Shown: one piece after another, positions 123-17,335 of the stretch
How the letters are laid out: the number at the start of each line of letters is the position of its first letter
Numbering within the stretch: position 1 is the first letter of the stretch
DNA from: Ruminococcus bicirculans (ex Wegman et al. 2014)
Lineage (GTDB): Bacteria > Bacillota > Clostridia > Oscillospirales > Ruminococcaceae
DNA length: 64,000 nucleotides
NCBI RefSeq assembly: GCF_000723465.1
Contig: NZ_HF545617.1
Location: 248,001-312,000, forward strand
Direction of reading: 5' to 3'
Program-made: the position numbers and the translations under genes
The notes under the pieces: model-generated
What the model was told of the DNA's origin: nothing
What the model saw: the letters and a program-made list of their open reading frames with translations, nothing else
Databases searched by the model: none

Positions 123-842
123 ATGAGCTATGGTTTTAAGATCATCGTGACAGGTGACTACGCTTGCTTTTCGCGACCTGAAATGAAAGTTGAGAGGGTA
201 AGCTACGACGTACCTACCCCAAGCGCACTGGAGGGACTTATCAAATCAGTATATTGGAAGCCTGCCGTGCGCTATCAGATAAACAAAATAGTGGTGTTCA
301 ACCCTATCGAGTTTACCAATATCCGACGAAACGAGGTCAAAGATAAGCTGCTGTTATCATCAGTGAAACAGCAAATGAAAGGCGGAGGCTCAGCGGAGAT
401 GTACACCTCGGAGATACGAAGTCAGCGTGCGGCAATGGTGTTGAAAAATGTGAAATACGGTATCGAGTTCACGTTTGAGCGCACCTATCTTAAATCAGAC
501 CACCCAGACGAATCTGATGAGAAGCATTATAACATAATGCTCAGACGTCTCAGAAACGGCCAGCATTTCAGACAGCCATGCCTTGGCTGTCGTGAATTTG
601 CAATAAAGAGTATTGAACTTGTTGACGACTTTGACCTTACGCAGATAGCACCGCAAAATATGGGTGATAAAGACCTTGGCTTTATGCTTTACGGCATGAA
701 GTTTGAGGACGGAGGCAAGCCTGTCAATAATGATTGGAATGACCCTAAGTTTTCTGACAAGGCCGACGCAGTTTTCTACCGTCCGCATATGATAGACGGT
801 GTTATCGATGTTGCAAAATACAGGGAGGAGATTAAATGCTGA
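123..842 (+). CDS. cas5c: Type I-C Cascade subunit and pre-crRNA endonuclease Cas5c (Cas5d)
   Basis: 239 residues, the usual length of type I-C Cas5. The N-terminus (GDYACFSRPEMKVERVSYDV, then PTPSALEGLI) is the typical RAMP beginning of the family. In type I-C the Cas6 role is taken by Cas5, which cuts each repeat at the base of its hairpin and stays on the 5' handle; no cas6 is seen here, in agreement. A tyrosine near residue 44 (SVYWKP) lies where the catalytic tyrosine of characterised Cas5d proteins is found, but the alignment was made by eye. The AAGGAG at 107-112 sits 10 nt before the ATG and fixes the start. The gene overlaps cas8c by 7 bp (ATGCTGA), so the two are translationally coupled. 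Confidence 0.95.
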   Translation: MSYGFKIIVTGDYACFSRPEMKVERVSYDVPTPSALEGLIKSVYWKPAVRYQINKIVVFNPIEFTNIRRNEVKDKLLLSSVKQQMKGGGSAEMYTSEIRSQRAAMVLKNVKYGIEFTFERTYLKSDHPDESDEKHYNIMLRRLRNGQHFRQPCLGCREFAIKSIELVDDFDLTQIAPQNMGDKDLGFMLYGMKFEDGGKPVNNDWNDPKFSDKADAVFYRPHMIDGVIDVAKYREEIKC

Positions 843-2686
843 TAAAAGCCTTGTGCGATTACAGTGCTTTGCAGGAGAATAAAACTCCTGCAGGCTATTG
901 TAAGCAAGCCATACACTTTGAAATTCTTCTTACCCCCGAGGGCAAGATAGCCGCAATAAACGATTTGAGAGTACCCCGAATTATCCCTCTGAAAAATAAA
1001 AAGACAAAAACAGTCTATGATCCAGTAATGGAACAGCTTCCCGTAAGAACGCAGAAACCGGGCATAGACAAAAACACGATCGAACACAGACCACTCTACA
1101 TATTCGGTCTGAACTATGATAAAGGAACTTTGACCCCTACAGACGCTACCAACAAAGCGGCAAAATCACACAAATGCTTTTGCGAATGGAATGAGAAGTT
1201 CTTTGAGAATATCGACTCACCTATCTGCAAAGCCTATCTTAATTTTATCCGTACATGGGAACCTGAGCAGGAAACCCAAAACCCACACCTTCTTGCCCTA
1301 GGCAAGGAGTATTCAAGCTCCTACTATGAGTTTGGACTTGACGGATCACCTGAAACTAAGCTTCACAATGACAGCAAATTCAAAGCCGCCTATGAGGATT
1401 ATCTCGCCCAGCTTAACGCCGACATCGACAGTGACGATACCGAACTATCCACCTGTTCCATTCTTGGTGAGAAGCTCCCGCAAGCCCGTATCCATGATAA
1501 AATAAAGGGTATCAAAGGTGGAATGTCCTCAGGCTGTGTCCTCGTTGGCATGAAAGAATCTGCCTTTGAGTCCTATGGCAAGAAGCAGTCCTACAACAGC
1601 AATGTTTCTGAGAAAGCTATGAAAATGTATACCTCTGCACTTAATTCTCTGCTTGCTGACAGAAGCCATTACAAGACTTTTGACGATATGACAATAGTCT
1701 ATTTCGCAATGAAGAAGAACGATGCAGAAGAATGCAATATGTTTGCCGGTATGTTCAGCGGATTTGAGGACGAATTAAATAAAACCGTTGTGACCGAAGC
1801 CGACCGAAACATAAACACTGTCATGACCCAGCTTAAACAGGGCAGGACAGCCGATATGCCTTATGACCCTAACGTAGAATTTTACGTTGCAGGCTTTACT
1901 CCAAACAGTTCAAGAATATCCCAGAAGTTCATCTTCCACGATAAGTTCGGCAAGATATTTGACAATGTACTCAAACATCAGCAGGATATTTCATTCACTG
2001 AGGGTCAGCGCCAAGTGAGTATTGAACGTATCAAGCGTGAGCTGATCTCACCGAAATCGTCCAAAGAAAAAGTTCCGTCACCTCTCACCGCCGCACTTTT
2101 TGAAGCAATACTCAAAGGCACAAGATACCCTGACGAACTGCTTTTCACAGTAATAACAAGGGTCAAGACCGACAGTGACGAGGAGAACAACCATTTTATA
2201 AAACTCAATGATACAAGGGCAGGCTTGATAAAAGGCTGCATTAATCGTAAACATAATAAGGAGGAGATCAAAATGTCATTAGACCTTGAAAACAAAAATC
2301 AGGCTTATCTTTGCGGAAGACTTTTCGCAGTGCTTGAAAAGATCCAGCAGGATTCTTCAAAGGCAACAATTAACACAACTATCAAAGATACTTATTTCTC
2401 ATCAGCTTGTTCAAGACCTGCAACTGTATTTCCTAAACTCTATTCGCTTTCACAAAATCATTTGAAAAAGTTTGAGAGTTCGAAACTTCGTAATTACTAC
2501 AATGATAAGTGCCTTGAGATAATTGATGATCTGAATGGTGAGTTTCCTCAGACTCTTTCAAATGACGATCAGGGCAGATTTATTGTAGGTTATGCACAGC
2601 AGTACAGAGATCTTTACACAAAAAAGTCAAAAGATAAGCCGGAAGAAAATTCTGAAGTTAAACCCGAAGCAAAATCAGAAGAATAA
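836..2686 (+). CDS. cas8c: Type I-C Cascade large subunit Cas8c (Csd1)
   Basis: 616 residues, the length expected of Cas8c/Csd1, and placed between cas5c and cas7c as in every I-C operon. Cas8c recognises the PAM and contacts the non-target strand in Cascade. The start overlaps the cas5c stop. The last 137 codons are also read as a separate protein (Cas11c) from an internal ribosome binding site, so this frame probably makes two products. The extreme C-terminus is a low-complexity Lys/Glu tail (KPEENSEVKPEAKSEE). I see no cysteine cluster or nuclease motif, as is normal for this family. The identification rests on operon position, length and general resemblance. Confidence 0.93.
   Translation: MLIKALCDYSALQENKTPAGYCKQAIHFEILLTPEGKIAAINDLRVPRIIPLKNKKTKTVYDPVMEQLPVRTQKPGIDKNTIEHRPLYIFGLNYDKGTLTPTDATNKAAKSHKCFCEWNEKFFENIDSPICKAYLNFIRTWEPEQETQNPHLLALGKEYSSSYYEFGLDGSPETKLHNDSKFKAAYEDYLAQLNADIDSDDTELSTCSILGEKLPQARIHDKIKGIKGGMSSGCVLVGMKESAFESYGKKQSYNSNVSEKAMKMYTSALNSLLADRSHYKTFDDMTIVYFAMKKNDAEECNMFAGMFSGFEDELNKTVVTEADRNINTVMTQLKQGRTADMPYDPNVEFYVAGFTPNSSRISQKFIFHDKFGKIFDNVLKHQQDISFTEGQRQVSIERIKRELISPKSSKEKVPSPLTAALFEAILKGTRYPDELLFTVITRVKTDSDEENNHFIKLNDTRAGLIKGCINRKHNKEEIKMSLDLENKNQAYLCGRLFAVLEKIQQDSSKATINTTIKDTYFSSACSRPATVFPKLYSLSQNHLKKFESSKLRNYYNDKCLEIIDDLNGEFPQTLSNDDQGRFIVGYAQQYRDLYTKKSKDKPEENSEVKPEAKSEE
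2258..2266 (+). promoter_or_regulatory. Internal ribosome binding site for cas11c
   Basis: AAGGAGGAG at 2258-2266 is an almost perfect anti-SD match inside cas8c. It is 6 nt before an in-frame ATG at 2273. It encodes the otherwise ordinary residues NKEEIK of Cas8c, and it is stronger than the site in front of cas5c. Confidence 0.85.
2273..2686 (+). CDS. cas11c: Type I-C Cascade small subunit Cas11c, translated from within cas8c
   Basis: 137 residues, in the same frame as cas8c (ATG at codon 480) and sharing its stop. Directly seen: a strong AAGGAGGAG with ideal spacing in front of this ATG. The product (MSLDLENKNQAYLCGRLFAV...) starts with a helical, Leu/Gln-rich region as expected of small subunits. 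Known: in type I-C systems Cas11c is made by internal translation of cas8c and is needed for a stable Cascade. Automatic gene callers omit it because it is nested. It would line the Cascade belly next to the Cas7c filament. Confidence 0.88.
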   Translation: MSLDLENKNQAYLCGRLFAVLEKIQQDSSKATINTTIKDTYFSSACSRPATVFPKLYSLSQNHLKKFESSKLRNYYNDKCLEIIDDLNGEFPQTLSNDDQGRFIVGYAQQYRDLYTKKSKDKPEENSEVKPEAKSEE

Positions 2687-2703
2687 AGAAAGGACGAAAT
2701 ATT

Positions 2704-3570
2704 ATGGAAAACGCAATCAAGAACAGATATGAATTTGTAATGCTTTTTGACGTTGAGAACGGCAACCCAAACGGCGACCCTGACGCAGGCAATATGCCTA
2801 GAACAGACCCTGAAACAAGCCTCGGTATCGTTACAGACGTGTGCCTTAAAAGGAAGATAAGAAACTTTGTGGAGCTTACCAAAGAGGGCGAAGCAGGCTA
2901 CAATATCCTTATCAAGGCAGACAAAGCCCTCAATACAAAGTTCACCGAAGCTTATAATACCCTTGGACTTGCCACAAAGCAGAAAGGCAAGAATCCTGAT
3001 GACGTTAAGCAGGCTCGTGACTATATCTGTCAGAACTACTTTGACGTAAGAACTTTCGGTGCAGTAATGAGTACAGGCGATGACCCGTGCGGCATTGTAA
3101 GAGGTCCTGTACAGCTCAACTTTGCAAGAAGTATCGACCCTGTTTTTGCTCAGAATATCACAATCACAAGACAGGCAAGAACAACAGAAGACAGACAGCA
3201 GAGCGGTGAGACCGAAATGGGCAAAAAGAGCATAATCCCATACGCTCTCTATCGTGGCGAGGGCTATGTTTCCGCAATGCTCGCTCAGAAGATAACAGGC
3301 TTTAGCGAGGACGACCTTGAGCTTCTTTGGACATCTATCATCAATATGTTCGAGCATGACAGAAGCGCCGCAAGAGGAAAGCTTTGTATGCGTAAGCTTA
3401 TCGTGTTCAAGCATGATTCCGCCCTGGGCAATGCCCCTGCACATATCCTCTTTGACAAGGTGTCAGTTAAGCTCAAAGACGGCGTGACAACTCCAAGACA
3501 TTACTCAGACTATGACATCACCATAGATAAGGATATGCCTGAGGGCGTTACCCTTATTGAAAAGCTCTGA
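2704..3570 (+). CDS. cas7c: Type I-C Cascade backbone subunit Cas7c (Csd2)
   Basis: 288 residues. The N-terminus (FVMLFDVENGNPNGDPDAGN followed by a PRTD motif) is the hallmark of the Csd2/Cas7 family, and TTEDRQQSGETEMGKKS lies in the thumb region. Several copies form the filament along the crRNA. The start has AAAGGACG 8-15 nt upstream. The stop codon shares its A with the ATG of cas4 (TGATG), so the next gene is translationally coupled. Together with cas5c, cas8c and cas11c this completes the interference complex; only the Cas3 nuclease-helicase is missing from the window. Confidence 0.95.
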   Translation: MENAIKNRYEFVMLFDVENGNPNGDPDAGNMPRTDPETSLGIVTDVCLKRKIRNFVELTKEGEAGYNILIKADKALNTKFTEAYNTLGLATKQKGKNPDDVKQARDYICQNYFDVRTFGAVMSTGDDPCGIVRGPVQLNFARSIDPVFAQNITITRQARTTEDRQQSGETEMGKKSIIPYALYRGEGYVSAMLAQKITGFSEDDLELLWTSIINMFEHDRSAARGKLCMRKLIVFKHDSALGNAPAHILFDKVSVKLKDGVTTPRHYSDYDITIDKDMPEGVTLIEKL

Positions 3571-4250
3571 TGAGCGAAGATGTAACTATCAATATCCGTG
3601 ACATACAGCATTATATGTATTGTCCACGCAGGTTTGCTCTTTTAGAAGTTAATGACGACTGGGCTGAAAACGCCTTTGTCGTCAAAGCAAACCTCCTCCA
3701 TGAGAACGTCCACAGCGGTGAGCGTAACTTTGAAAATAAGCGTAAGATCGTCCGAAGTGACGTGGCAGTGTATAACGATGACCCTAAGTACAATATTTTC
3801 GGAGTTGTAGATTGTATCGAGTTCGTCCGTGACAAATGCGGCGACTATATAGATACTCTGGGCGGCACATTCCGTGTGGAAATTGTGGAGTATAAACCCA
3901 CCAGACCCAAATCAGGGGAGTTCAATCAGACCGACGCTATACAAGTCTATGCGCAGAAGCTTTGCGTGGATAACGTGTTTCATTGCAATAGCCGATGTTT
4001 TCTGTACTATGCAGATGTGCGCAGACGATCAGAATTGCCCTTTGATACTCAGGGCGCAGAGTATGATAAAATGCTTTGCGACTATCTTGGAAAAATGCGT
4101 GAGATACTTGCAGCGGATATTATCCCAAAGCGTGTAAAAGGTCAGAAATGTTCAGGCTGTTCACTGTCGGATATGTGCTTTCCAAAAGTGAAGAAATATA
4201 GCGTGAAAAATACGATTTTCTCCATGAACGGAGGCGAAAACAATGCGTAA
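3570..4250 (+). CDS. cas4: Cas4 RecB-like exonuclease for spacer processing
   Basis: About 226 residues. Four cysteines of the Fe-S cluster are visible: one in YCPRR near residue 18, and three in the C-terminal CSGCSLSDMC. The RecB-type nuclease core shows the aspartate in FGVVDCIEF (about 80), VEIVEYKP with the catalytic E and K (about 105-108), and a glutamine in QVYAQKL. In I-C systems Cas4 joins Cas1-Cas2 to trim prespacers, pick those with a PAM and set their orientation. It overlaps cas7c by 1 bp and cas1 by 8 bp. Confidence 0.95.
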   Translation: MSEDVTINIRDIQHYMYCPRRFALLEVNDDWAENAFVVKANLLHENVHSGERNFENKRKIVRSDVAVYNDDPKYNIFGVVDCIEFVRDKCGDYIDTLGGTFRVEIVEYKPTRPKSGEFNQTDAIQVYAQKLCVDNVFHCNSRCFLYYADVRRRSELPFDTQGAEYDKMLCDYLGKMREILAADIIPKRVKGQKCSGCSLSDMCFPKVKKYSVKNTIFSMNGGENNA

Positions 4251-5265
4251 ACTGCTCAATTCACTTTATATTCTCGAAGAAACTGCCTACCTCACACTTG
4301 ACGGCGAAAACATAGTGTGCAGGGCAGAGGACAGCGAGAAGTTCCGTGTGCCTTTTACTAATATTGAGGATATCTATATTTTCAGCTATTCGGGCTGTTC
4401 ACCTGCGCTTATGGGCAAGTGTGCAGAATATGGCATAGCCGTTAATTTTATTTCTCCTCAAGGTAAATTTCTCGCAAGAGTTCAGGGCAAAACAAAGGGC
4501 AACGTCTATCTGCGAAAAGAGCAGTTTGAGCTTTTTTCTACCCCTCAGCTCGACCTTATCAGGAATACTGTCGCCGCAAAGCTTTCAAATACACGTTATC
4601 TTATCAGACGTTCGCTCCACGATAACCCGGATATAAACAGTGACGGAGCGCTTACAGATTGTATAAAATATCTTGAAAACGGCATAAAGACCGTCTATGA
4701 AACTTCCGATAAAGATATCATCATGGGTATAGAGGGAAGCTGTGCAAAGGCATATTTTGATATATTTGACCGACTGATACTCCACCAAAAAGAAGATTTT
4801 TACCTTGCCAACCGCACCAAACGCCCACCCCTCGACAGAGTAAACGCCATGCTCTCGTTTCTGTATACTATCGCAATTTCATCATATACATCAGCCCTTG
4901 AAAGCGTAGGACTTGATAGCTGCCTCGGCTTTTACCACGCCCTGCGTTCAGGCAGAAGCAGCCTGTCCTGCGACCTTGTAGAGGAATTTCGTAGCGTGGT
5001 GGAGCGACTTGTGCTTACCATGATAAACTTGAAAATGATAAAGCCCGAGGACTTTGAAACTCAGGTCAGTGGCGCAGTATACCTATCCAAAGAGGGCAAG
5101 AAAAAAGTCCTCACCGCATGGCAGGAGCGTAAGCGCACAAGCATAGTCCACCCATATCTAGGCGAAAAGATACAGCAAGGGCTACTCCCATATGTGCAAA
5201 GCTCGCTTCTCGCAAAATATATCCGTGGCGAGCTAGATGAGTACCCGAACTATTTGCTGAAATAG
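4243..5265 (+). CDS. cas1: CRISPR integrase Cas1
   Basis: 340 residues, with an N-terminal beta domain and a helical catalytic domain. The metal ligands are in place: E164 in GIEGSCAKAYF, H232 in GFYHALRSG, and D244 with E247/E248 in SLSCDLVEEFR. With Cas2 it inserts new spacers at the leader-proximal repeat. Translation starts inside the end of cas4 (8-bp overlap). An intact active site and near-identical repeats along the array suggest that adaptation works, or did until recently. Confidence 0.97.
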   Translation: MRKLLNSLYILEETAYLTLDGENIVCRAEDSEKFRVPFTNIEDIYIFSYSGCSPALMGKCAEYGIAVNFISPQGKFLARVQGKTKGNVYLRKEQFELFSTPQLDLIRNTVAAKLSNTRYLIRRSLHDNPDINSDGALTDCIKYLENGIKTVYETSDKDIIMGIEGSCAKAYFDIFDRLILHQKEDFYLANRTKRPPLDRVNAMLSFLYTIAISSYTSALESVGLDSCLGFYHALRSGRSSLSCDLVEEFRSVVERLVLTMINLKMIKPEDFETQVSGAVYLSKEGKKKVLTAWQERKRTSIVHPYLGEKIQQGLLPYVQSSLLAKYIRGELDEYPNYLLK

Positions 5266-5276
5266 AGGTGATATAA

Positions 5277-5567
5277 ATGATGACCTTAGTAAGCTATGAT
5301 GTATCAACAACAGATAATAAGGGTAAAACAAGGCTGAGAAAAGTGTCGAAAGAGTGTCAAAATTATGGACAGCGAGTGCAGAACAGCGTGTTTGAAATAG
5401 ACGTAGACTATGGCACTTTTCTGAAAGTGAAAGATAAACTTCTGAAAATAATAGACCCAAAGCATGATAGTCTGCGGATATATTACTTAGGCAACAATTG
5501 GAAGCATAGAGTAGAACACTACGGCACCAAAGAGACCTATGACCCCGAAGGTGTCCTAATATTTTGA
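5277..5567 (+). CDS. cas2: CRISPR adaptation protein Cas2
   Basis: 96 residues with the Cas2 ferredoxin-like start LVSYDVST, including the conserved YDV aspartate, and the C-terminal EGVLIF strand seen in type I-C Cas2. AGAGGTG lies just upstream. Two adjacent ATGs (5277 and 5280) are equally possible starts. It is the last gene of the operon and is separated from the first repeat only by the leader. Confidence 0.95.
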   Translation: MMTLVSYDVSTTDNKGKTRLRKVSKECQNYGQRVQNSVFEIDVDYGTFLKVKDKLLKIIDPKHDSLRIYYLGNNWKHRVEHYGTKETYDPEGVLIF

Positions 5568-5726
5568 CCTGCGTACCCCAAGTGATCCACAAATCCCTAG
5601 TAAGTTCGCATGAAAATGCCATGCTATTTATGAATGCACAGTGAACAAAATCAAACCGATACCCATTAAATAAAAAAATAAGTCCGCATCACGTTGAGCA
5701 AGCACCAGATATACACAACATCAAGT
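5568..5726 (+). promoter_or_regulatory. CRISPR leader
   Basis: 159 bp between cas2 and the first repeat, with no gene. By position it should hold the pre-crRNA promoter and the Cas1-Cas2 integration signals. I cannot point to a clear consensus promoter; a run of A-rich sequence lies at 5667-5683. The opposite end of the array has the degenerate repeats, which supports this side as the leader end. Confidence 0.7.
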
Positions 5727-8700
5727 GTCACGCTCCACGTGAGCGTGTGAGTTGAAATTGTAAAAGCTGTTGTTGAATTTCTGTGGAACGCTTGTCACGC
5801 TCCACGTGAGCGTGTGAGTTGAAATAACAGCGGTTTCAGTATGAAAGAGGTTTCGGAGTGTCACGCTCCACGTGAGCGTGTGAGTTGAAATGATGATGTT
5901 AGCGGTGGTGGTTCGTCTAGTAACGGTCACGCTCCACGTGAGCGTGTGAGTTGAAATTTTCAAATGGGATTGGTCTTACGCCGTTTTCATATTGTCACGC
6001 TCCACGTGAGCGTGTGAGTTGAAATATTAATGGAGAGCAGGGCAGTGCAGGAACGAGAGTCACGCTCCACGTGAGCGTGTGAGTTGAAATTTCTGTATCA
6101 GCTTGACCAATTCTTAAATCTTGGTCACGCTCCACGTGAGCGTGTGAGTTGAAATGAAATACCTTAAAGAAATTAAAACTAATAAGACGTCACGCTCCAC
6201 GTGAGCGTGTGAGTTGAAATTGCTGGTACTGCAAACACGCAGTGCCAAAGAGCGGTCACGCTCCACGTGAGCGTGTGAGTTGAAATAAATTTGTACATAT
6301 TTGTACCCAATTTGGGGTTGTCACGCTCCACGTGAGCGTGTGAGTTGAAATACACGCCCGATGAATTCGGTTACGATTGAGCGAGGTCACGCTCCACGTG
6401 AGCGTGTGAGTTGAAATGTCATGTAGAGGACCGAAGCCTATTGCGTGTTTGTCACGCTCCACGTGAGCGTGTGAGTTGAAATGTGTTGATTTTTTGTGCA
6501 AATTATCCATAAACACACGTCACGCTCCACGTGAGCGTGTGAGTTGAAATTTTAATTAAGTATATTAACATATCCATAAAACCGCGTCACGCTCCACGTG
6601 AGCGTGTGAGTTGAAATAGCCTGGATAAACGCATTCCGCAAAAGATAGTTAGTCACGCTCCACGTGAGCGTGTGAGTTGAAATTACCAATCACAAAACAA
6701 ATAAGTTTACTGCTAAGTCACGCTCCACGTGAGCGTGTGAGTTGAAATAATTTAATTGTTTAATTTGTTTACTATTTTTATGTCACGCTCCACGTGAGCG
6801 TGTGAGTTGAAATTGATTCAGTTCTGGAATTTGCGGATGCTCTTGAGTCACGCTCCACGTGAGCGTGTGAGTTGAAATATATAACCGCCCTATATACTCA
6901 AAATGACCACATGGTCACGCTCCACGTGAGCGTGTGAGTTGAAATATATAAATAATTGTATCATAATTCATACAATGTTGTCACGCTCCACGTGAGCGTG
7001 TGAGTTGAAATGAAACGTTTATAAATGTGGGCGGTCATTCATGGCGTCACGCTCCACGTGAGCGTGTGAGTTGAAATTATAATATTTGATTTTTATCAAT
7101 TATTGATTAAGTCACGCTCCACGTGAGCGTGTGAGTTGAAATCTATACGCTCAATAGAATCATCGGCATCAAGATTTGTCACGCTCCACGTGAGCGTGTG
7201 AGTTGAAATGACAAATATGTTATTTGCGGCTATAGAATCCCGCGTCACGCTCCACGTGAGCGTGTGAGTTGAAATACTAAAATACGCCTAAATTTTAATA
7301 CTCAATCCCGTCACGCTCCACGTGAGCGTGTGAGTTGAAATGTATCAGAGCTTGCGGTGATCTTGCGGAAATTTGTCACGCTCCACGTGAGCGTGTGAGT
7401 TGAAATGATAATTGCAATTTGCTTTGGCGTAAAAACCTTCGTCACGCTCCACGTGAGCGTGTGAGTTGAAATAAAACCGATTTCCGAACCGATAGCCACG
7501 CCCATGGTCACGCTCCACGTGAGCGTGTGAGTTGAAATTTCCGCTTTTTAGTATTAGCAGTAAACTTATTTGTCACGCTCCACGTGAGCGTGTGAGTTGA
7601 AATAGATCCATATTTAATTGTTTAATTTGTTTACTAGTCACGCTCCACGTGAGCGTGTGAGTTGAAATAATGCCGCTCTGATTGTTGCCCACGATCATGA
7701 CCGTCACGCTCCACGTGAGCGTGTGAGTTGAAATTTTTGACAAGCTGTATAAGGCTACACCTGACGAGGTCACGCTCCACGTGAGCGTGTGAGTTGAAAT
7801 AACAAATTCCGATTGATGAGGTTTTCTATACCCACGTCACGCTCCACGTGAGCGTGTGAGTTGAAATGACACAACAGGGCTAAAACGTGGTGATAATAAT
7901 GCAGGTCACGCTCCACGTGAGCGTGTGAGTTGAAATAGCGTATCTTTACAAGAATGGTAAATGTAGAGGGTCACGCTCCACGTGAGCGTGTGAGTTGAAA
8001 TGTATGGTCTGCAATGCCAATCCGAGAGTTACAAGGTCACGCTCCACGTGAGCGTGTGAGTTGAAATGATAATTGCAATTTGCTTTGGCGTAAAAACCTT
8101 CGTCACGCTCCACGTGAGCGTGTGAGTTGAAATTAGTATCATCTCTTGCTAGGTTTGGCTGTACACGGTCACGCTCCACGTGAGCGTGTGAGTTGAAATG
8201 ACAGGTTTTCACCTGATGATTTTGATATCATCATGTCACGCTCCACGTGAGCGTGTGAGTTGAAATGTAAAGGAAAAACGCTGAGGATATCTGCACCCGA
8301 GTCACGCTCCACGTGAGCGTGTGAGTTGAAATATCTTTGCGGTATCTGTAGAACAGTGCTACGAGAGTCACGCTCCACGTGAGCGTGTGAGTTGAAATGC
8401 TGCATAGGCATTTTCTGTCCCTGCCATATTGCGTCACGCTCCACGTGAGCGTGTGAGTTGAAATTATATTATTTGATTTTTATCAATTATTGATTAAGTC
8501 ACGCTCCACGTGAGCGTGTGAGTTGAAATCACATTAACCGATAATTTTTTGTAATTTTTGGCAGGTCACGCTCCACGTGAGCGTGTGAGTTGAAATTTGT
8601 TCTACTGTTCTACACTTGACTTTTTATTTCGTCACGCTCCACGTGAGCGTGTGAGTTGAAATTTTTCATTTTAGCTTTTCCGCTTTTTAGTATTAGCGTC

Positions 8701-11700
8701 ACGCTCCACGTGAGCGTGTGAGTTGAAATTTTGGTTTTTGGTTTATTCCCTTCCCTTACTGTGTCACGCTCCACGTGAGCGTGTGAGTTGAAATTTTATT
8801 TCTTTTATGTTATCCTAAAAATATGGTGTCACGCTCCACGTGAGCGTGTGAGTTGAAATTTTGCCAAAATCACATATATAAATAATTGTATCGTCACGCT
8901 CCACGTGAGCGTGTGAGTTGAAATAAAATATAAGCATACAATATATTGTATATAGCAAGGTCACGCTCCACGTGAGCGTGTGAGTTGAAATGACTTTTTA
9001 TTTCTTTTATGGTTGATTAAATTCACGTCACGCTCCACGTGAGCGTGTGAGTTGAAATTTATGTTATCCTAAAAATATGGTTGATTAAATTCAGTCACGC
9101 TCCACGTGAGCGTGTGAGTTGAAATTACCGATCACAAATAAGTTTACTGCTAATACTAAAAGTCACGCTCCACGTGAGCGTGTGAGTTGAAATAAAATGT
9201 TTTTAATCCAGTTTTCCGAATTTCTGGGTCACGCTCCACGTGAGCGTGTGAGTTGAAATAAAGCCATTCCGTCAGAAAGGGGTACAGGTCGCCGTCACGC
9301 TCCACGTGAGCGTGTGAGTTGAAATTTAGAAAAGGGTCATTGAATTTCTCAAAGAATAGTCACGCTCCACGTGAGCGTGTGAGTTGAAATCTCTTGATAA
9401 TGTTACGGTATTTAAACTATTGGGTCACGCTCCACGTGAGCGTGTGAGTTGAAATCCGAATTTTAAAACCCCCTGCGGGGGTTATTATGTCACGCTCCAC
9501 GTGAGCGTGTGAGTTGAAATGACCATAGGCGGCTGATTGGTTTCGGCGGCTGTGTCACGCTCCACGTGAGCGTGTGAGTTGAAATGCGGCATTAACGCCG
9601 CCGAATAGGTTAGCAATGAGTCACGCTCCACGTGAGCGTGTGAGTTGAAATGTTTCCATATGTTCCCATAAATGTAAAGTCACCGTCACGCTCCACGTGA
9701 GCGTGTGAGTTGAAATTATAATATTTGATTTTTATCAATTATTGATTAAGTCACGCTCCACGTGAGCGTGTGAGTTGAAATTACTGTATCTATAGTATAC
9801 CATATTTGTAGCTACGTCACGCTCCACGTGAGCGTGTGAGTTGAAATAATCATCATCTTTAAAATTTGAACATTTTATATGTCACGCTCCACGTGAGCGT
9901 GTGAGTTGAAATCGCAACTTCTGCACAAGCGTGTTCAGCTGAGCCAGGTCACGCTCCACGTGAGCGTGTGAGTTGAAATCGATACTCCGCGCTCACGCTT
10001 GGGCGCGCCGCAGTCACGCTCCACGTGAGCGTGTGAGTTGAAATCTATTGCGTGTCGCTCCTGTTGGTCGCTCCACGCCGGTCACGCTCCACGTGAGCGT
10101 GTGAGTTGAAATTCCGTTATGGTTTGCGGATTGACGACGTTCTTCAGTCACGCTCCACGTGAGCGTGTGAGTTGAAATGATAATCTTTTACCATAATTTT
10201 GTAAGGCTCGTGTCACGCTCCACGTGAGCGTGTGAGTTGAAATTTATGGATAAGGACTTTTTGAGATACGCAATAGGGTCACGCTCCACGTGAGCGTGTG
10301 AGTTGAAATGATAGAGATAAGAAGCCATGTGATATTGGCTACATGTCACGCTCCACGTGAGCGTGTGAGTTGAAATGTGAAGCTGAGTGGCTATTCAGAG
10401 GTTCCCTACGTCACGCTCCACGTGAGCGTGTGAGTTGAAATTTCTAAAATTTTGAAAATCCCCATACATACACGGTCACGCTCCACGTGAGCGTGTGAGT
10501 TGAAATATCCATAAGAGCATGAGCCGCTGTTAGAGTCTGTGTCACGCTCCACGTGAGCGTGTGAGTTGAAATTCAACATCCGCTGAAATTATATGATAGT
10601 ATCTATGTCACGCTCCACGTGAGCGTGTGAGTTGAAATGGCACGTTTCGGACGAGCTGATAAAGGCGTTTGAGTCACGCTCCACGTGAGCGTGTGAGTTG
10701 AAATTTATTGACGATGGCAATTTTGAGGAAGCTGAAAGTCACGCTCCACGTGAGCGTGTGAGTTGAAATCTATGGGCGTTCTGAAAGTCTATTTGTATTC
10801 GGAGTCACGCTCCACGTGAGCGTGTGAGTTGAAATTTATGGGGATTGATGAAGATCTGCGTATAATCGGTCACGCTCCACGTGAGCGTGTGAGTTGAAAT
10901 CATGATAGGTTTTGTCAGTATAGTCAAACAAATTCGTCACGCTCCACGTGAGCGTGTGAGTTGAAATGCCTGTGGATTGATTTCACCATAGTTTTCCAGT
11001 GTCACGCTCCACGTGAGCGTGTGAGTTGAAATGTCACGGGTGACTATTTTCACAGGCGGTAGCGTGTCACGCTCCACGTGAGCGTGTGAGTTGAAATTGA
11101 TAGATTTCAGCCGTTTGGATATCACGTCATTGGTCACGCTCCACGTGAGCGTGTGAGTTGAAATTGCCGTCTTGGTCTCTTAGCTGGATTTCACCGCGTC
11201 ACGCTCCACGTGAGCGTGTGAGTTGAAATCTCATTGAGAGCAAACCGATAATGAGACAAGACCAGTCACGCTCCACGTGAGCGTGTGAGTTGAAATGTGA
11301 CTGTGTTACAACAATTTTATTAGTTGGTTCAGTCACGCTCCACGTGAGCGTGTGAGTTGAAATATGCAGATCCAGTGTGAGCGACCCGAAGCCATACGCG
11401 TCACGCTCCACGTGAGCGTGTGAGTTGAAATATTTTGCCTATTGCACAAAAGTTTTATGGGTGGATGTCACGCTCCACGTGAGCGTGTGAGTTGAAATTG
11501 TAGCCTGACGGAATTTTCTTCTTCATATCCCGTCACGCTCCACGTGAGCGTGTGAGTTGAAATGTAAAAATCACGTTCGCCAAACTTGTCTGCAAAGTCA
11601 CGCTCCACGTGAGCGTGTGAGTTGAAATAGTTTTCAAAAAATGGTAAAGTCTAATGTGGAGGTCACGCTCCACGTGAGCGTGTGAGTTGAAATAGTTGTT

Positions 11701-14700
11701 ATTGCAGCCTCTCCGATTATTTCATGCGTCACGCTCCACGTGAGCGTGTGAGTTGAAATTTTTACAAAAATAGTTGCAACTATTCAAGCATTTGTCACGC
11801 TCCACGTGAGCGTGTGAGTTGAAATTTCCTCTGCCAAGTCTTTCCATTCTTCCGAAATTGTCACGCTCCACGTGAGCGTGTGAGTTGAAATAAATTATTT
11901 ACAGTTTTTACATCGGCTGAAATGGTCACGCTCCACGTGAGCGTGTGAGTTGAAATTTTTTACAGTTATGACCAAAATTACAATGGGCAGTCACGCTCCA
12001 CGTGAGCGTGTGAGTTGAAATGCTGATTGCGTGGTCACAATTTCCAGTGCATTGGTCACGCTCCACGTGAGCGTGTGAGTTGAAATAAAATGCGTATGCA
12101 CCTGTATCCCTGCCACAAATGTCACGCTCCACGTGAGCGTGTGAGTTGAAATTGTCATTGGAATATAACCCCATAGAAAACTACTCGTCACGCTCCACGT
12201 GAGCGTGTGAGTTGAAATGAGTATACATTCTTTACACAGGCATTCTCTACGAGTCACGCTCCACGTGAGCGTGTGAGTTGAAATCCTTTCCCCTCTTCCA
12301 GCCCAGGGTGCATACCCTGTCACGCTCCACGTGAGCGTGTGAGTTGAAATGACCAATTTATAACACAATCCCGAATAATGGACTGGTCACGCTCCACGTG
12401 AGCGTGTGAGTTGAAATTGTCTTTCCCTCGCAGAGCCTTGTGCCTCTGCCGTCACGCTCCACGTGAGCGTGTGAGTTGAAATGCACTGTCAGCAGATTTG
12501 CCAGCTTCTTTTGCATAGTCACGCTCCACGTGAGCGTGTGAGTTGAAATCGTTCAATCTCACCAATGTTCGCACAGGGCGAACCGTCACGCTCCACGTGA
12601 GCGTGTGAGTTGAAATACAGTATTTGAGCATTTCATCAGCTATCTGATAAGTCACGCTCCACGTGAGCGTGTGAGTTGAAATCTATTTTGGAACACAATA
12701 TTCAAAATCAAGTGAGTCACGCTCCACGTGAGCGTGTGAGTTGAAATTGCGATCTTAGCGGCATGGTCTGCCACTGTAGCCGTCACGCTCCACGTGAGCG
12801 TGTGAGTTGAAATTTCACGTACTGGCTATAGCCTGTATGCCATGTGGTCACGCTCCACGTGAGCGTGTGAGTTGAAATGCCAGTTATCGAAATGCGGCGG
12901 CGTTTTCCTGTTGTCACGCTCCACGTGAGCGTGTGAGTTGAAATGAGAAGCGAGTGGCAGAACACAACAATTTTGCAAGGTCACGCTCCACGTGAGCGTG
13001 TGAGTTGAAATGCTGTCAGAATATTCAAGTGCAAGTGTTAAATCAGTCACGCTCCACGTGAGCGTGTGAGTTGAAATTTAGCGTTGTTTTGTCATTGTAA
13101 AATTTTAACGCGTCACGCTCCACGTGAGCGTGTGAGTTGAAATAAACATTTGTGCGTGATATGGTAACAAAGGGTTTGTCACGCTCCACGTGAGCGTGTG
13201 AGTTGAAATGAAACGTTCATGACCGATTAGAAATTGGAACTCAGTCACGCTCCACGTGAGCGTGTGAGTTGAAATCCGATATTTTCATTTCTAGTAACTA
13301 AAAATTCGCGTCACGCTCCACGTGAGCGTGTGAGTTGAAATGCACTGTCATTTCCAGTCATTGGAATTGATATACGTCACGCTCCACGTGAGCGTGTGAG
13401 TTGAAATTGGTTGCGGGAGCTGGATTTGAACCAACGACCTTGTCACGCTCCACGTGAGCGTGTGAGTTGAAATTCATTTCAAGAGCCTTTGTACTGTTGA
13501 CAAATTGTCACGCTCCACGTGAGCGTGTGAGTTGAAATGCGAAAACGTCCTTAAAACGTTCATGACCAATTAGAGTCACGCTCCACGTGAGCGTGTGAGT
13601 TGAAATGGACGTTTTACGATGGCGTGTAGCATATGACCAAGTCACGCTCCACGTGAGCGTGTGAGTTGAAATATGGCAAAGAGGGAAAACCTTGAAAATA
13701 TCGATATGTCACGCTCCACGTGAGCGTGTGAGTTGAAATAATCCATTCGGCTAATCTCGGGAAATCTGCACGGTCACGCTCCACGTGAGCGTGTGAGTTG
13801 AAATTATTTTACAAAGCCTTGCACTTCGGACGAGTCGGTCACGCTCCACGTGAGCGTGTGAGTTGAAATCGGTTGCAACGTGGCAACCACAAAAATGCTA
13901 TTTGTCACGCTCCACGTGAGCGTGTGAGTTGAAATTGTTTATCTCGTCAATACAATTTTCGTTATATTGTCACGCTCCACGTGAGCGTGTGAGTTGAAAT
14001 ATTAATCTTTTTTAGTGAATAATATTCATTTCTGTCACGCTCCACGTGAGCGTGTGAGTTGAAATTAGTATAGTAAAGTGTTAAAGCGGTGAAGCGAGTA
14101 GTCACGCTCCACGTGAGCGTGTGAGTTGAAATTCATTTCAAGAGCCTTTGTACTGTTGACAAATTGTCACGCTCCACGTGAGCGTGTGAGTTGAAATAAC
14201 AGCCCCTGACATTTTGACAGATAGTTGGGAGTCACGCTCCACGTGAGCGTGTGAGTTGAAATGACAGAGATAAGAAGCCGTGTGATATTGGTTATGTCAC
14301 GCTCCACGTGAGCGTGTGAGTTGAAATTTAAATCCTTTACATGAGTTTTTGTAAATGGTTGGTCACGCTCCACGTGAGCGTGTGAGTTGAAATGCATGGT
14401 ATGTAATGCAAATCCGAGAGTTACAAGTCACGCTCCACGTGAGCGTGTGAGTTGAAATTAAATATATACTGTTTGACGAATTTATGACCCGGTCACGCTC
14501 CACGTGAGCGTGTGAGTTGAAATTGCGTGTCAGCTGTCAGATCGTGGGGCGTGCATCGTCACGCTCCACGTGAGCGTGTGAGTTGAAATTTAATTTATTC
14601 AAAGTAAAGTCAAAATCTTCCCGTCACGCTCCACGTGAGCGTGTGAGTTGAAATTTTGGGGATATACATTTCATTGTCAAAAAATTCAGTCACGCTCCAC

Positions 14701-14984
14701 GTGAGCGTGTGAGTTGAAATACTCTGTCAAACGATATACTTAAAACAAGAACCATGTCACGCTCCACGTGAGCGTGTGAGTTGAAATATATTCACGGCTC
14801 CTGCGGGCATACTAGCCCTTGGTCACGCTCCACGTGAGCGTGTGAGTTGAAATAACTTTCCTAAATTTATAGCACTTCTGCCGCGCGTCACGCTCCACGT
14901 GAGCGTGTGAGTTGAAATGTAGTACAGCATTACGCCTGACATTGCCTGCTTGGTCACGCTCCATGTGAGCGTGTGAGTTGAAAT
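5727..14984 (+). CRISPR. Type I-C CRISPR array, 141 repeats and 140 spacers
   Basis: A 32-bp repeat begins GTCACGCTC and ends in the 11-nt handle TGAGTTGAAAT. Counting by eye gives 141 copies from 5727 to the copy at 14953, with periods of 65-69 bp and spacers of 33-37 nt. The arms CACGCTC and GAGCGTG form a perfect 7-bp stem around the loop CACGT, the Cas5c substrate. All copies I read are identical except the last, which has one change in the loop (CATGT). Some spacers recur: 7078, 8465 (one mismatch) and 9717; 7407 and 8068; 13474 and 14133. Numbering is from the leader, so low numbers should be the newest. Short apparent ORFs here are translations of the repeat. Confidence 0.99.
13408..13441 (-). 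other. Spacer 117 equals the 3' end of an initiator-type tRNA-Met
   Basis: Read on the minus strand, this 34-nt spacer contains a complete T arm (GTTGG, loop TTCAAAT, CCAGC), the acceptor 3' strand CTCCCGCA and a terminal ACCA. The order and bases are those of the 3' part of bacterial tRNA-fMet. It is a spacer, not a tRNA gene. The target is probably a phage-borne tRNA or an element integrated at this tRNA's 3' end, a usual attachment site. Confidence 0.8.
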
Positions 14985-15017
14985 ACGATAATGTAAAAAA
15001 AAGAGAGGTATCATGCA

Positions 15018-15491
15018 ATGATTAAATTATTTTTGAAAGAATACTTAGATGAAATGTCAACTGTATGTAGGGATAATCAGAATAATGTAAGTATCGCTGT
15101 AAATCCCGATTCTGAAAGGCAAGGACATCCTTATTTCAAATTTTATAATAACGTTTATTATGGATATGCTGCTAAGGTGGTTAGAATTTTATTTAATTCA
15201 GCAGATTATGTTGATAATAAAAATGCAGAAGACCAAAAGCTTTGGAAACTTTCGCATAAAGAAAAAAAGTTGCTTAAAGAACTTTTGAGTAGTCCTTCTG
15301 CAGAATATTCAGATATGACTATTTGGGAAGCTTGTAAATTTGAGTGGAACTTTGAATATTTAGAGCAATCTATTAACTTAGATAAATATGTAAATGGTGA
15401 ATATGATAAGGATAAAACATTCACAGAAAATCCTGGCTATGTACCCTACAGTTTGGAAATGCCTGATTATTTAGAATTAAACTTTTGCTAA
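15018..15491 (+). CDS. Unknown 157-residue protein encoded in a spacer position of the array
   Basis: The gene lies between CRISPR repeat 141 (ends 14984) and a degenerate repeat (15507), in the same direction as the array. AGAGAGGT (15002-15009) precedes the ATG by 8 nt. Only 33 nt separate the repeat from the ATG and I see no good promoter there, so it is probably read from the array transcript. The product is soluble-looking, rich in aromatic and charged residues (YFKFYNNVYYGY, a Lys-rich KKLLKELL helix, WEACKFEWNFEYLEQS) and acidic at the C-terminus. There is no signal peptide or membrane segment. Base composition is clearly AT-richer than the cas genes, which suggests transfer. I do not recognise the family; an element-derived, toxin/antitoxin or CRISPR-related function is only a guess. 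Confidence 0.75.
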   Translation: MIKLFLKEYLDEMSTVCRDNQNNVSIAVNPDSERQGHPYFKFYNNVYYGYAAKVVRILFNSADYVDNKNAEDQKLWKLSHKEKKLLKELLSSPSAEYSDMTIWEACKFEWNFEYLEQSINLDKYVNGEYDKDKTFTENPGYVPYSLEMPDYLELNFC

Positions 15492-15506
15492 ATATGTAAC
15501 TTTAAC

Positions 15507-15602
15507 GTACGCTCCACGTGAGCATATGAGTTGAAATGTTGACAAATCGGGCAAAAGTGATATAATAGAAGTCACGCTCCACATGAGCGTGTGAGTTGAA
15601 AT
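15507..15602 (+). CRISPR. Degenerate two-repeat mini-array with one 33-nt spacer
   Basis: Two repeat copies, 15507-15537 and 15571-15602, are separated by 33 nt, the normal spacer length. The first lacks one base at the 5' end and has GCATATG in place of GCGTGTG, which puts a mismatch in its hairpin stem. The second differs only in the loop (CACAT). The unit lies between the two embedded genes. Confidence 0.9.
15539..15566 (+). promoter_or_regulatory. Near-consensus promoter occupying the mini-array spacer
   Basis: TTGACA (15539-15544), a 16-bp spacer, then TGA-TATAAT (-10 at 15561-15566, extended). All of it lies inside the 33-nt spacer between two repeats. Transcription would start at the beginning of the next repeat, around 15573, and run into the 50-codon gene. 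It is the best promoter match in this part of the window. Confidence 0.7.
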
Positions 15603-15665
15603 TTTCCCGAGAAATAGTTAAGCTAGCTAAAGAAAAATATATTAGTTTAAAAGGAACGTGATAAT

Positions 15666-15818
15666 ATGAGAGAAATGCCAATATGGTTGGACTATGCGGA
15701 ATTTGATGATGACGGATTATGCGGCATATCCCCAAATGCACCGGACGAAGTAAAGAAAGCTTACGAAGATTATTTAGCTGAAGAAGAAGAGGCTAAATCA
15801 AAAGGCATAAAAATTTAA
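15666..15818 (+). CDS. Unknown acidic 50-residue protein encoded between CRISPR repeats
   Basis: The frame encodes MREMPIWLDYAEFDDDG at the N-terminus, then a helix with EEVKK/AYEDYLAEEEEAKSK-like composition, ending KGIKI. AAGGAAC (15651-15657) is 8 nt before the ATG. The intergenic promoter-like spacer at 15539-15566 lies about 100 bp upstream. The gene is bounded by repeats at 15571-15602 and 15849-15880 and points along the array. The strong acidity and size are compatible with an antitoxin, immunity protein or DNA-mimic inhibitor, but no family is recognised. It is easily missed because of its length; a real SD and a plausible promoter support it. Confidence 0.6.
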   Translation: MREMPIWLDYAEFDDDGLCGISPNAPDEVKKAYEDYLAEEEEAKSKGIKI

Positions 15819-15848
15819 TAATTTTTACTGCTCCGCTACGGCGAGGCG

Positions 15849-15941
15849 GTCACGCTCCACGTGAGCGTGTGAGTTGAAATATTATGCTGACGTTATGTTT
15901 TTGTAGTTTATCCCAGCCACGCTCCACGTGAGCGTGTGGGT
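15849..15941 (+). CRISPR. Terminal repeat-spacer-repeat remnant
   Basis: A perfect repeat copy (15849-15880), a 35-nt spacer (15881-15915) and a final truncated repeat (15916-15941). The last copy keeps both hairpin arms but loses the TTGAAAT end. This is the usual look of a leader-distal array end and suggests that the array once ran without interruption to here. Confidence 0.9.
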
Positions 15942-15989
15942 CAATTTTCGTTTCAACGCAGGACTTATTGATATTGAATAATACAAGTA

Positions 15990-16019
15990 ACCGCTTGACT
16001 AAGGTCGGGCGGTATTTTT
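15990..16019 (+). terminator. Probable terminator of the CRISPR array
   Basis: The arms ACCGC (15990-15994) and GCGGT (16009-16013) enclose an inner GAC/GTC pair and are followed by ATTTTTA. It lies 49 bp after the final truncated repeat and could end the pre-crRNA transcript. Confidence 0.5.
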
Positions 16020-16402: not shown

Positions 16403-17335
16403 TCAATCATATTGGACACTATTATTAAGAAATTCGATAGGCGAAAACCATTTGAGGGGACGCATAGGACGGTTGTTTGTTCGACTTAAACGTGCAGCTA
16501 GCTGCACGTTTAAGTCGTCGCAGGAATAAAACCTATGGCACGAATAGAATTTGTTGTGATCTTCTCGGTGACTGCGCTCTACTTTGCCATTGTGCCTAGG
16601 CGTATATGGACGAATGAGTTTGTGTTCAATGCCAAGTTGTGAGAGCGTATTCTCAAACAGCGTTTTCTTGTCTCTTTTGCTTGGCGAAAAGCGGTTAGTA
16701 AATTCAAATCCATTGTCGGTCTGAATACATTTCACCGTTATTCCTCTGCGTTTGTACCATTTCACCAGCCTTTTTACAAAGTCTGCTGAAGAATAGGTGC
16801 TTTGCTCCTCATATCCGTATAAAAATCTTATCCTGGTATACTCATCGATCGCCGTGTATTGGTACAGCTTCATCTCTGGGTCAGCTATACACTTTCTCGG
16901 AACTACCTTTACGTCCACCTGAACACGTTCTCCGGGGTATGTCATCTGCTCGTATGGCTTTGGTTTATACGTCGCTTTCTTCGGCTTTTTCGGAAGCATT
17001 CCTAGTTTTTTCATAACCCTGTAAAGACTTTCAAGACAGCGTGTATACCCTTGCTTCCTGAGACGATGCCATAGTTCGGGAAGCTCAAGTGTCGGGTTCC
17101 GTTTGTGATACCTTTTGATAAGATCTATTTCTTCCTTGGTATGCTCATTGGGATGATGATGCGGTCGGCGTGATTTAACTGCAAGGGACTCCACACTTCC
17201 GTCCCAGCGTTTCAGCCAGAAATATATATATGAACGTGATTTATTGTATTTTCTGCTCGCTCGGCTCACTCCATATTTCTTTGCGTAATTCATTAAGGAT
17301 TGACGAAACTTCATATCTTGTGTTATACTATTCAT
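16403..17335 (-). CDS. DDE transposase, IS481/IS1202 type
   Basis: 310 residues. An N-terminal helix-turn-helix region (NYAKKYGVSRASRKYNKSRS) is followed by a second HTH, then an rve-type integrase core. The acidic triad can be read: D in VQVDVKVVPRK, D in IQTDNGFEFTN, and E in HNGKVERSHREDH. The frame is uninterrupted and ends 10 bp inside the left IS end. A perfect 36-bp palindrome (16482-16517) lies within the coding sequence and encodes LNVQLAARLSR after the catalytic glutamate. The transposase start is the ATG at 17335; a weak AGGAAG lies upstream. Confidence 0.93.
   Translation of the reverse strand: MNSITQDMKFRQSLMNYAKKYGVSRASRKYNKSRSYIYFWLKRWDGSVESLAVKSRRPHHHPNEHTKEEIDLIKRYHKRNPTLELPELWHRLRKQGYTRCLESLYRVMKKLGMLPKKPKKATYKPKPYEQMTYPGERVQVDVKVVPRKCIADPEMKLYQYTAIDEYTRIRFLYGYEEQSTYSSADFVKRLVKWYKRRGITVKCIQTDNGFEFTNRFSPSKRDKKTLFENTLSQLGIEHKLIRPYTPRHNGKVERSHREDHNKFYSCHRFYSCDDLNVQLAARLSRTNNRPMRPLKWFSPIEFLNNSVQYD
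16482..16517. repeat. Perfect 36-bp palindrome inside the transposase gene
   Basis: The left half CGACTTAAACGTGCAGCT is exactly the reverse complement of the right half, with no loop. The reading frame passes through it. It is seen directly in the sequence and extends no further on either side. Confidence 0.97.

Follow-up and report, generated by a model that had tools for sequence, protein, structure and literature searches.

The closest described relative of the locus analyzed here is SiL-E1, a pseudo-spacer of 1.9 kb that lies exactly between repeats in Sulfolobus islandicus LAL14/1 and was reported in 2013 (PMC3718332). In the available part of that paper its authors knew of no other case in archaea or bacteria, and in the open-licence PMC literature we found a gene-sized pseudo-spacer other than an insertion sequence (IS) only there, and no bacterial one. 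Other kinds of irregular interval have been described. IS elements and prophages within CRISPR arrays are mentioned in one account (PMC10359306), and a 58-bp double spacer in Streptococcus agalactiae was explained by two known spacers having lost the repeat that separated them (PMC4466440). Where Cas4 activity was lost in a type V-A system, the acquired spacers shifted toward greater length while 29 nt was still the main length, and the available part of the work reports no acquisition of gene size (PMC9419969).

We have analyzed a 64 kb stretch of DNA from Ruminococcus bicirculans (the window), which contains a type I-C system, i.e., a cas operon followed by an array. The operon (123–5567, + strand) was assigned from open reading frames (ORFs) and from Pfam matches above the curated cut-offs. 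It comprises cas5c (123–842), cas8c (836–2686), cas7 (2704–3570), cas4 (3570–4250), cas1 (4243–5265) and cas2 (5277–5567), all on the + strand. The leader-side region from cas2 to the first repeat (5568–5726, +) is defined by position only. The array (5727–15947, +) has 145 repeats of 32 nt and 144 intervals, 142 of which measure 33–37 nt. The only two longer ones are interval 141, of 521 bp (14985–15505, +), between repeats 141 and 142, and interval 143, of 246 bp (15603–15848, +), between repeats 143 and 144. As with SiL-E1, gene-sized non-transposon DNA is contained in one interval. We think it rather probable that both are phage-type pseudo-spacers filling whole I-C spacer slots, most likely by way of an untrimmed prespacer, and that their genes are passengers.

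The repeats that border insert 1 (interval 141) carry one and five mismatches and those that border insert 2 (interval 143) one and none, with more units beyond each insert on either side. Repeats 141 (14953–14984, +) and 143 (15571–15602, +) each have a single mismatch, in the loop, and an intact hairpin (−10.4 kcal/mol). Repeat 142 (15506–15537, +) is the degenerate one, with a weaker hairpin (−7.0 kcal/mol), and repeat 144 (15849–15880, +) is perfect. The array closes with a degenerate terminal repeat 145 (15916–15947, +; six mismatches), directly 3′ of which a consensus scan placed an intrinsic-terminator-like hairpin with a T tract (15990–16013, +). Just past the array end lies an rve-type transposase gene (16403–17335, minus strand). 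Three ordinary spacers are present twice in the array, in intervals 21/61, 26/36 and 118/128, and in genome G000 there is one reverse-strand match to the repeat (at most three mismatches) elsewhere in the genome, outside the window.

An initial annotation of this DNA had described repeat 141, then 522 bp with a 157-codon gene, then a degenerate repeat. That layout is confirmed, with the length corrected to 521 bp. The gene is an ATG-initiated ORF of 157 aa in the array direction (15018–15491, +), preceded by the RBS-like stretch GAGAGGT, in agreement with the ribosome binding site that had been proposed. The insert is AT-rich, as had been stated, with a GC content of 0.29, whereas the preceding intervals average 0.38. 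The annotation had also reported that the gene lacks a clear promoter, and had named an independent promoter in the 33 nt upstream as a point against its own reading; that stretch contains nothing promoter-like at 9/12 matches or more.

Would phage DNA commonly supply such genes? We drew 19,998 random fragments of 521 bp from six phage stretches. A forward ORF that was complete, began with ATG, encoded 157 aa or more and had a Shine-Dalgarno match was present in 16 of them, and in 587 when the ORF threshold was set at 100 aa or more. Of 19,998 random phage fragments of 246 bp, the size of insert 2, 201 contained a complete forward ORF of 50 aa or more, again with a Shine-Dalgarno match. The thresholds were picked after the inserts had been seen and the phage pool was small, so that these figures are rough guides. 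Interval 141 as observed, one of only two among 144 to exceed 33–37 nt and with an intact gene, goes beyond chance. Frequencies of ∼0.1%–3% for insert 1, depending on the threshold, and 1% for insert 2 count, together with the 12/12 promoter in the one slot between the inserts (see below), against the genes being passengers, in that there is more order than passengers need.

The 157-aa protein (protein 1) is without known family. Among 247 sampled genomes of the family, two besides its own contained relatives; a four-row profile matched its own genome alone among 394 genomes of the order, and a pattern scan of 84,980 species genomes gave five loci. Four viral-contig scans were made for protein 1 or its alignment neighbors, one of which gave one locus (L024), the best relative, 49% identical and located on a 198-kb viral contig. 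This brings the relatives to 10 gene copies on six contigs, where G126:C102 and JAMPFN010000004.1 (68,180 bp each) are counted as one contig; those other than on the viral contig are on bacterial genome contigs. The protein similarity extends to the end of the ORF, 14 nt short of the right edge of the insert. Searches of Pfam, PHROGs, PADLOC and NCBIfam returned nothing reliable on its function. A structure predicted with fair confidence by AlphaFold2 (mean pLDDT 81, with residues 1–12 below 50) matched nothing in PDB or BFVD at E 0.001; a DUF4160-like fold is our own supposition. Insert 1 looks phage-derived, its best relative being on the viral contig. The phage origin of protein 1 is less secure than that of the protein encoded in insert 2, because its other relatives sit on bacterial contigs.

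Some neighbors of the relatives of gene 1 are mobile-looking by eye, namely a resolvase in L003 and a tail-sheath-like ORF in L020. Rabbit-gut Akkermansia contigs contain several copies (L021, 5887–7692; L022, 1984–2532 and 6292–7382). Two relatives are adjacent in L022, and those in L021 adjoin part of an rmuC-like gene (named by eye) whose counterpart in L022 is longer.

Interval 143 and its gene were absent from the initial annotation. The gene (15666–15818, +) has 50 codons, is in the array direction and is preceded by an RBS-like stretch. Its product (protein 2) matches the phage family PHROG 20195 (E 4e-4) and also, in a viral-contig scan, a relative in L007 to which it is 36% identical and which itself matches PHROG 20195. 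There the relative sits between a head-morphogenesis-like gene upstream and a scaffold-like gene (both named by eye), and the next gene on matches annotated phage major head proteins. A short frame precedes gene 2 within the insert, and its best placement along the L007 upstream protein (306 residues) is at the exact C-terminus (permutation p 0.003). Insert 2 would therefore be contiguous phage DNA almost from its first base, the protein similarity extending nearly to its left edge. It looks like the probable 3′ end of one phage gene followed by the next whole gene. No ORF in either insert, and no transposase among them, exceeded a Pfam cut-off, and no PADLOC model of a known anti-phage defense matched protein 1 or protein 2.

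We sought a source phage with matching ends in phage records, plasmid records and viral contigs and found none. Searches by tblastn gave no source for protein 1 or protein 2 in phage records, nor for protein 1 in plasmid records; further viral-contig scans for a source gave no match, and neither did a 25-nt exact piece of spacer 142. A blastn comparison of positions 14953–15947 with phages gave 10 records, those listed having one match of 51 nt and 80% identity in insert 2 (E 7e-3), which was not taken as the source.

We have also surveyed other I-C arrays for oversized intervals. The survey covered 140 stretches, extending up to 20 kb downstream of cas8c, from the order and the phylum: 80 stretches (90 of 394 genomes matched, that of the window included) and 60 stretches (102 of 398). 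Fragmentary matches and many near a contig end were omitted, and arrays cut by contig ends were retained. An array was found in 121 of the 140 stretches. Adding the window brings the totals to 122 arrays and 5,747 intervals of normal size, with one array perhaps counted twice, since the L143 and L170 stretches overlap on a single contig. Besides the two in the window there were 21 intervals of at least 150 bp, comprising three clean non-IS inserts, two non-IS inserts with damaged edges, seven IS-like inserts and nine that were set aside.

The three clean non-IS inserts found in these 121 arrays are of 1,048 bp (L083) and of 1,634 and 996 bp (both in L060, genome G435); two of them are phage-type, and one is mostly a copy of host chromosome. 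That of L083 is the seventh of 29 intervals, is flanked by perfect repeats, and consists of a 5′-truncated phage Gp15 gene and then an ORF ending in a SHOCT domain; one phage record matched it, with 25% covered at 66.7% identity. The L060 insert of 1,634 bp contains a 5′-truncated tape-measure-like gene and a second ORF, of 180 aa, in the opposite direction, and two phage records matched it in tape-measure genes (4% covered, 80.9% identity). The 996-bp insert (11376–12371) begins with 33 unmatched nt of spacer length, followed by 963 bp of its own chromosome with 962 positions identical (99.9%), a near-identical copy of the host DUF1361-gene region. At the join, two nucleotides (GT) agree with the start of the repeat. 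L060 has the same order of units as the window, namely oversized, ordinary, oversized, ordinary, degenerate end repeat. Own-genome searches with the L083 and L041 inserts returned the arrays themselves only.

The two inserts with damaged edges are those of L041 and L165 (1,147 bp), non-IS DNA whose edge repeats are damaged, truncated or partly duplicated. The L165 insert (1477–2623) carries a 250-aa gene with an HExxH-like motif, antisense in the array, and has the 5′ half of the repeat at both edges. The seven IS-like inserts, with transposases recognized by eye, lie in four arrays (L118, L159, L174 and four in L171). The intervals set aside were one of 216 bp in L088, with no ORF of 35 aa or more; two in L144 and one of 221 bp in L176, which contain N; one in L139 and one of 954 bp in L165, with cas-like genes beside the array (by eye); one in L151, with an IstB-like fragment at the array end (by eye); one in L164, with chromosomal genes beyond the array (by eye); and one of 1,462 bp in L176, with RelB/RelE-like genes among degenerate repeats. 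The RelB/RelE-like pair (4800–5930, named by eye) is antisense among degenerate CRISPR repeats. Two stretches in L074, of 2,744 and 838 bp, arose from chance matches beyond the array. The 34 intervals of 56–149 bp were left unclassified; among the seven that were viewed, three contain N and the rest resemble lost or degenerate repeats, L042 being ambiguous.

Are the inserts placed at random? A trailer-end position (the last four intervals) was found for four of five clean inserts including those of the window, for five of seven with L041 and L165, and for none of the seven IS-like inserts (Fisher p 0.010 and 0.021), but with arrays instead of inserts as the unit p rises to 0.17. The longest ORF is in the array direction in five of five clean inserts and in six of seven of all non-IS inserts (p 0.06 and 0.13), the L165 gene being the antisense one. 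We regard both biases as hints only.

The slot-exact position, the phage-type relatives and the recurrence of clean inserts in other I-C arrays are direct observations. The initial annotation had offered simple insertion of foreign DNA into the array as its plain alternative, and this reading is now the better supported, given the phage-like appearance of both inserts and the presence of comparable ones in other I-C arrays. In the mechanism that we propose, the CRISPR integrase (Cas1-Cas2, normally with Cas4) would join a prespacer that had escaped trimming to the usual length, so that pieces of phage-type DNA come to fill spacer slots between repeats, with both genes carried along as passengers. 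New CRISPR units are usually added at the leader end. Provided that this held here, capture would have taken place early in the history of the array. Faulty prespacer trimming would fit, by analogy with the Cas4-deficient system mentioned above. The reading frames of the L083 insert (bases 3–491 and 539–1042 of 1,048) leave no room for an old spacer of 33–37 nt at either end, so this insert was not simply dropped into a spacer, which favors uptake as a spacer unit. We infer that the integrase was the route, in what order the units were acquired, and that the genes lack a function. In our view the locus more likely reflects a rare capture of oversized foreign DNA than a novel means of switching on a gene.

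The DNA might instead have entered by homologous or illegitimate recombination, without the integrase. Two spacers matching one phage could, for example, convert repeat-A-repeat-B-repeat into repeat-A...phage...B-repeat, or DNA could be joined at a broken repeat. This is one of the two routes named in the SiL-E1 report (PMC3718332). The 996-bp insert of L060, with its spacer-like start, its segment of own chromosome and the GT match at the join, is not one captured piece, and more probably arose by joining at the edge between a spacer and a repeat or by recombination; at least this one insert needs another route. The inserts of L041 and L165, which terminate at truncated or partly duplicated repeats, point the same way. 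However, if the insert ends were spacers next to their protospacer-adjacent motif (PAM), TTC, which we take to be the I-C PAM, should precede the last 33–37 nt. It does so in one of six inserts (L083), and is absent there from both inserts of the window, both of L060 and that of L041, which carries little weight as its right end is a truncated repeat. Moreover, at E 0.05 neither insert is matched by any of the 142 ordinary spacers in the array of the window. For the window we consider recombination unlikely, while less so than any of the other alternatives to integrase capture weighed here. Misassembly, in which array and phage reads were joined via shared sequence, has to be weighed as well, given that arrays are repetitive and that many survey genomes are fragmented. 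However, the genome of the window (2.97 Mb) is in two contigs, as is G435 with its two clean inserts, and no second copy of the window's two proteins was found in their own genome. We find an artefact barely credible.

A further element of the locus, again absent from the initial annotation, lies between the two inserts. Spacer 142 (15538–15570, +), of ordinary length at 33 nt, reads TTGACA-16-TATAAT with TG before the −10 element, a perfect extended −10 sigma-70-like promoter aimed at insert 2. It is the sole 12/12 match in the 64 kb. On the array strand, three of 5,296 unique ordinary spacers contain a 12/12 promoter, spacer 142 included. Gene 2 starts 96 bases downstream of the spacer, and from the usual start-site distance transcripts would begin within the first bases of repeat 143. 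Two complete genes in the array direction with a promoter slot between them are more than chance easily gives, an order that was noticed post hoc.

The initial annotation had suggested that gene 1 is expressed from the pre-crRNA, with Cas5c cutting at repeat 141 to give its mRNA a crRNA-like 5′ handle. We obtained no direct support for this coupling. Homologues lying always far from CRISPR arrays had been named in that annotation as grounds for refuting the idea, and within flanks of 139 bp to ∼6 kb this holds: by a simple repeat test, none of the 10 copies of gene 1 relatives on six contigs has CRISPR-like repeats beside it. Gene 2, downstream of spacer 142, is the better candidate for such coupling. 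Since the hairpins of repeats 141 and 143 are intact, cutting before both genes is plausible, and expression from the array or from the promoter spacer is possible. Could the two inserts then be a domesticated cassette, whose genes have both been retained since they are expressed from the array, gene 1 from Cas5c-cut pre-crRNA and gene 2 from the spacer 142 promoter? The transcript of gene 2 would start at about the next repeat and acquire a crRNA-like 5′ handle after cleavage. That both ORFs are intact, in the array direction and equipped with RBS-like stretches agrees with this, as do the promoter and the retention of the hairpin in the repeats before each gene, with a weaker one in the repeat between. 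Yet the flanks examined around the relatives of gene 1 hold no array, the comparable inserts of L083 and L060 carry truncated genes, the arrangement of features was recognized only after the fact, and spacers of two other arrays also contain 12/12 promoters. We consider a retained cassette quite improbable. A more extended version, in which the array is an integron-like platform for gene capture that stored a phage gene, a promoter and a phage gene in turn, with the promoter driving gene 2 and Cas5c providing crRNA-like 5′ ends, strikes us as a long shot. We return to integrase capture, with the genes as passengers, as the reading to be preferred.

Occasional uptake of DNA hundreds to thousands of bases long, if it occurs, would mean that the length ruler of CRISPR adaptation leaks more than has been assumed and that whole genes can be kept intact in arrays. 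Oversized inserts may be overlooked by array finders. From the available part of its description, CRISPRdb drops candidate clusters with spacers outside 0.6–2.5 times the repeat length and lists an IS-split array as two, although its authors state that an array is not ruled out when some of its spacers are larger (PMC1892036). Such inserts offer a direct test of Cas1-Cas2-Cas4 on long DNA, and of gene expression within arrays.

How does the locus compare with known systems? An IS or a prophage likewise interrupts an array with gene-sized DNA, whereas the window inserts contain no transposase with a Pfam match over the cut-off, and are far smaller than a prophage. The 58-bp interval of S. agalactiae is also a spacer slot longer than usual, and the window inserts are far longer (PMC4466440). 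The CreTA systems, as far as the available part of their description goes, likewise have degenerate repeats close to a gene associated with CRISPR; their CreT, however, is a small toxic RNA that a crRNA-like RNA represses, whereas the window has conserved phage-type protein genes inside the array. Partial matches of the CreTA type, between a crRNA-like antitoxin and the promoter of the toxin, may be shorter than a search at E 0.05 detects, and the lack of such matches among the ordinary spacers is to be read with that in mind. The strongest likeness is to SiL-E1, in which gene-sized DNA of a mobile element also lies exactly between repeats with ordinary units beyond, and whose authors too weigh faulty protospacer processing against recombination (PMC3718332). 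From the available part of that report, SiL-E1 is a single insert of plasmid-like DNA of ∼2 kb in an archaeal array with subtype I-A cas genes (PMC3718332), whereas the window has two single-gene phage-type inserts in a bacterial I-C array, one of them beside a degenerate repeat, with a promoter-like spacer between. The locus is a further case of a known, little-studied kind, the pseudo-spacer, to which it adds recurrence in type I-C arrays and the occurrence of two in one array around a promoter-like spacer.
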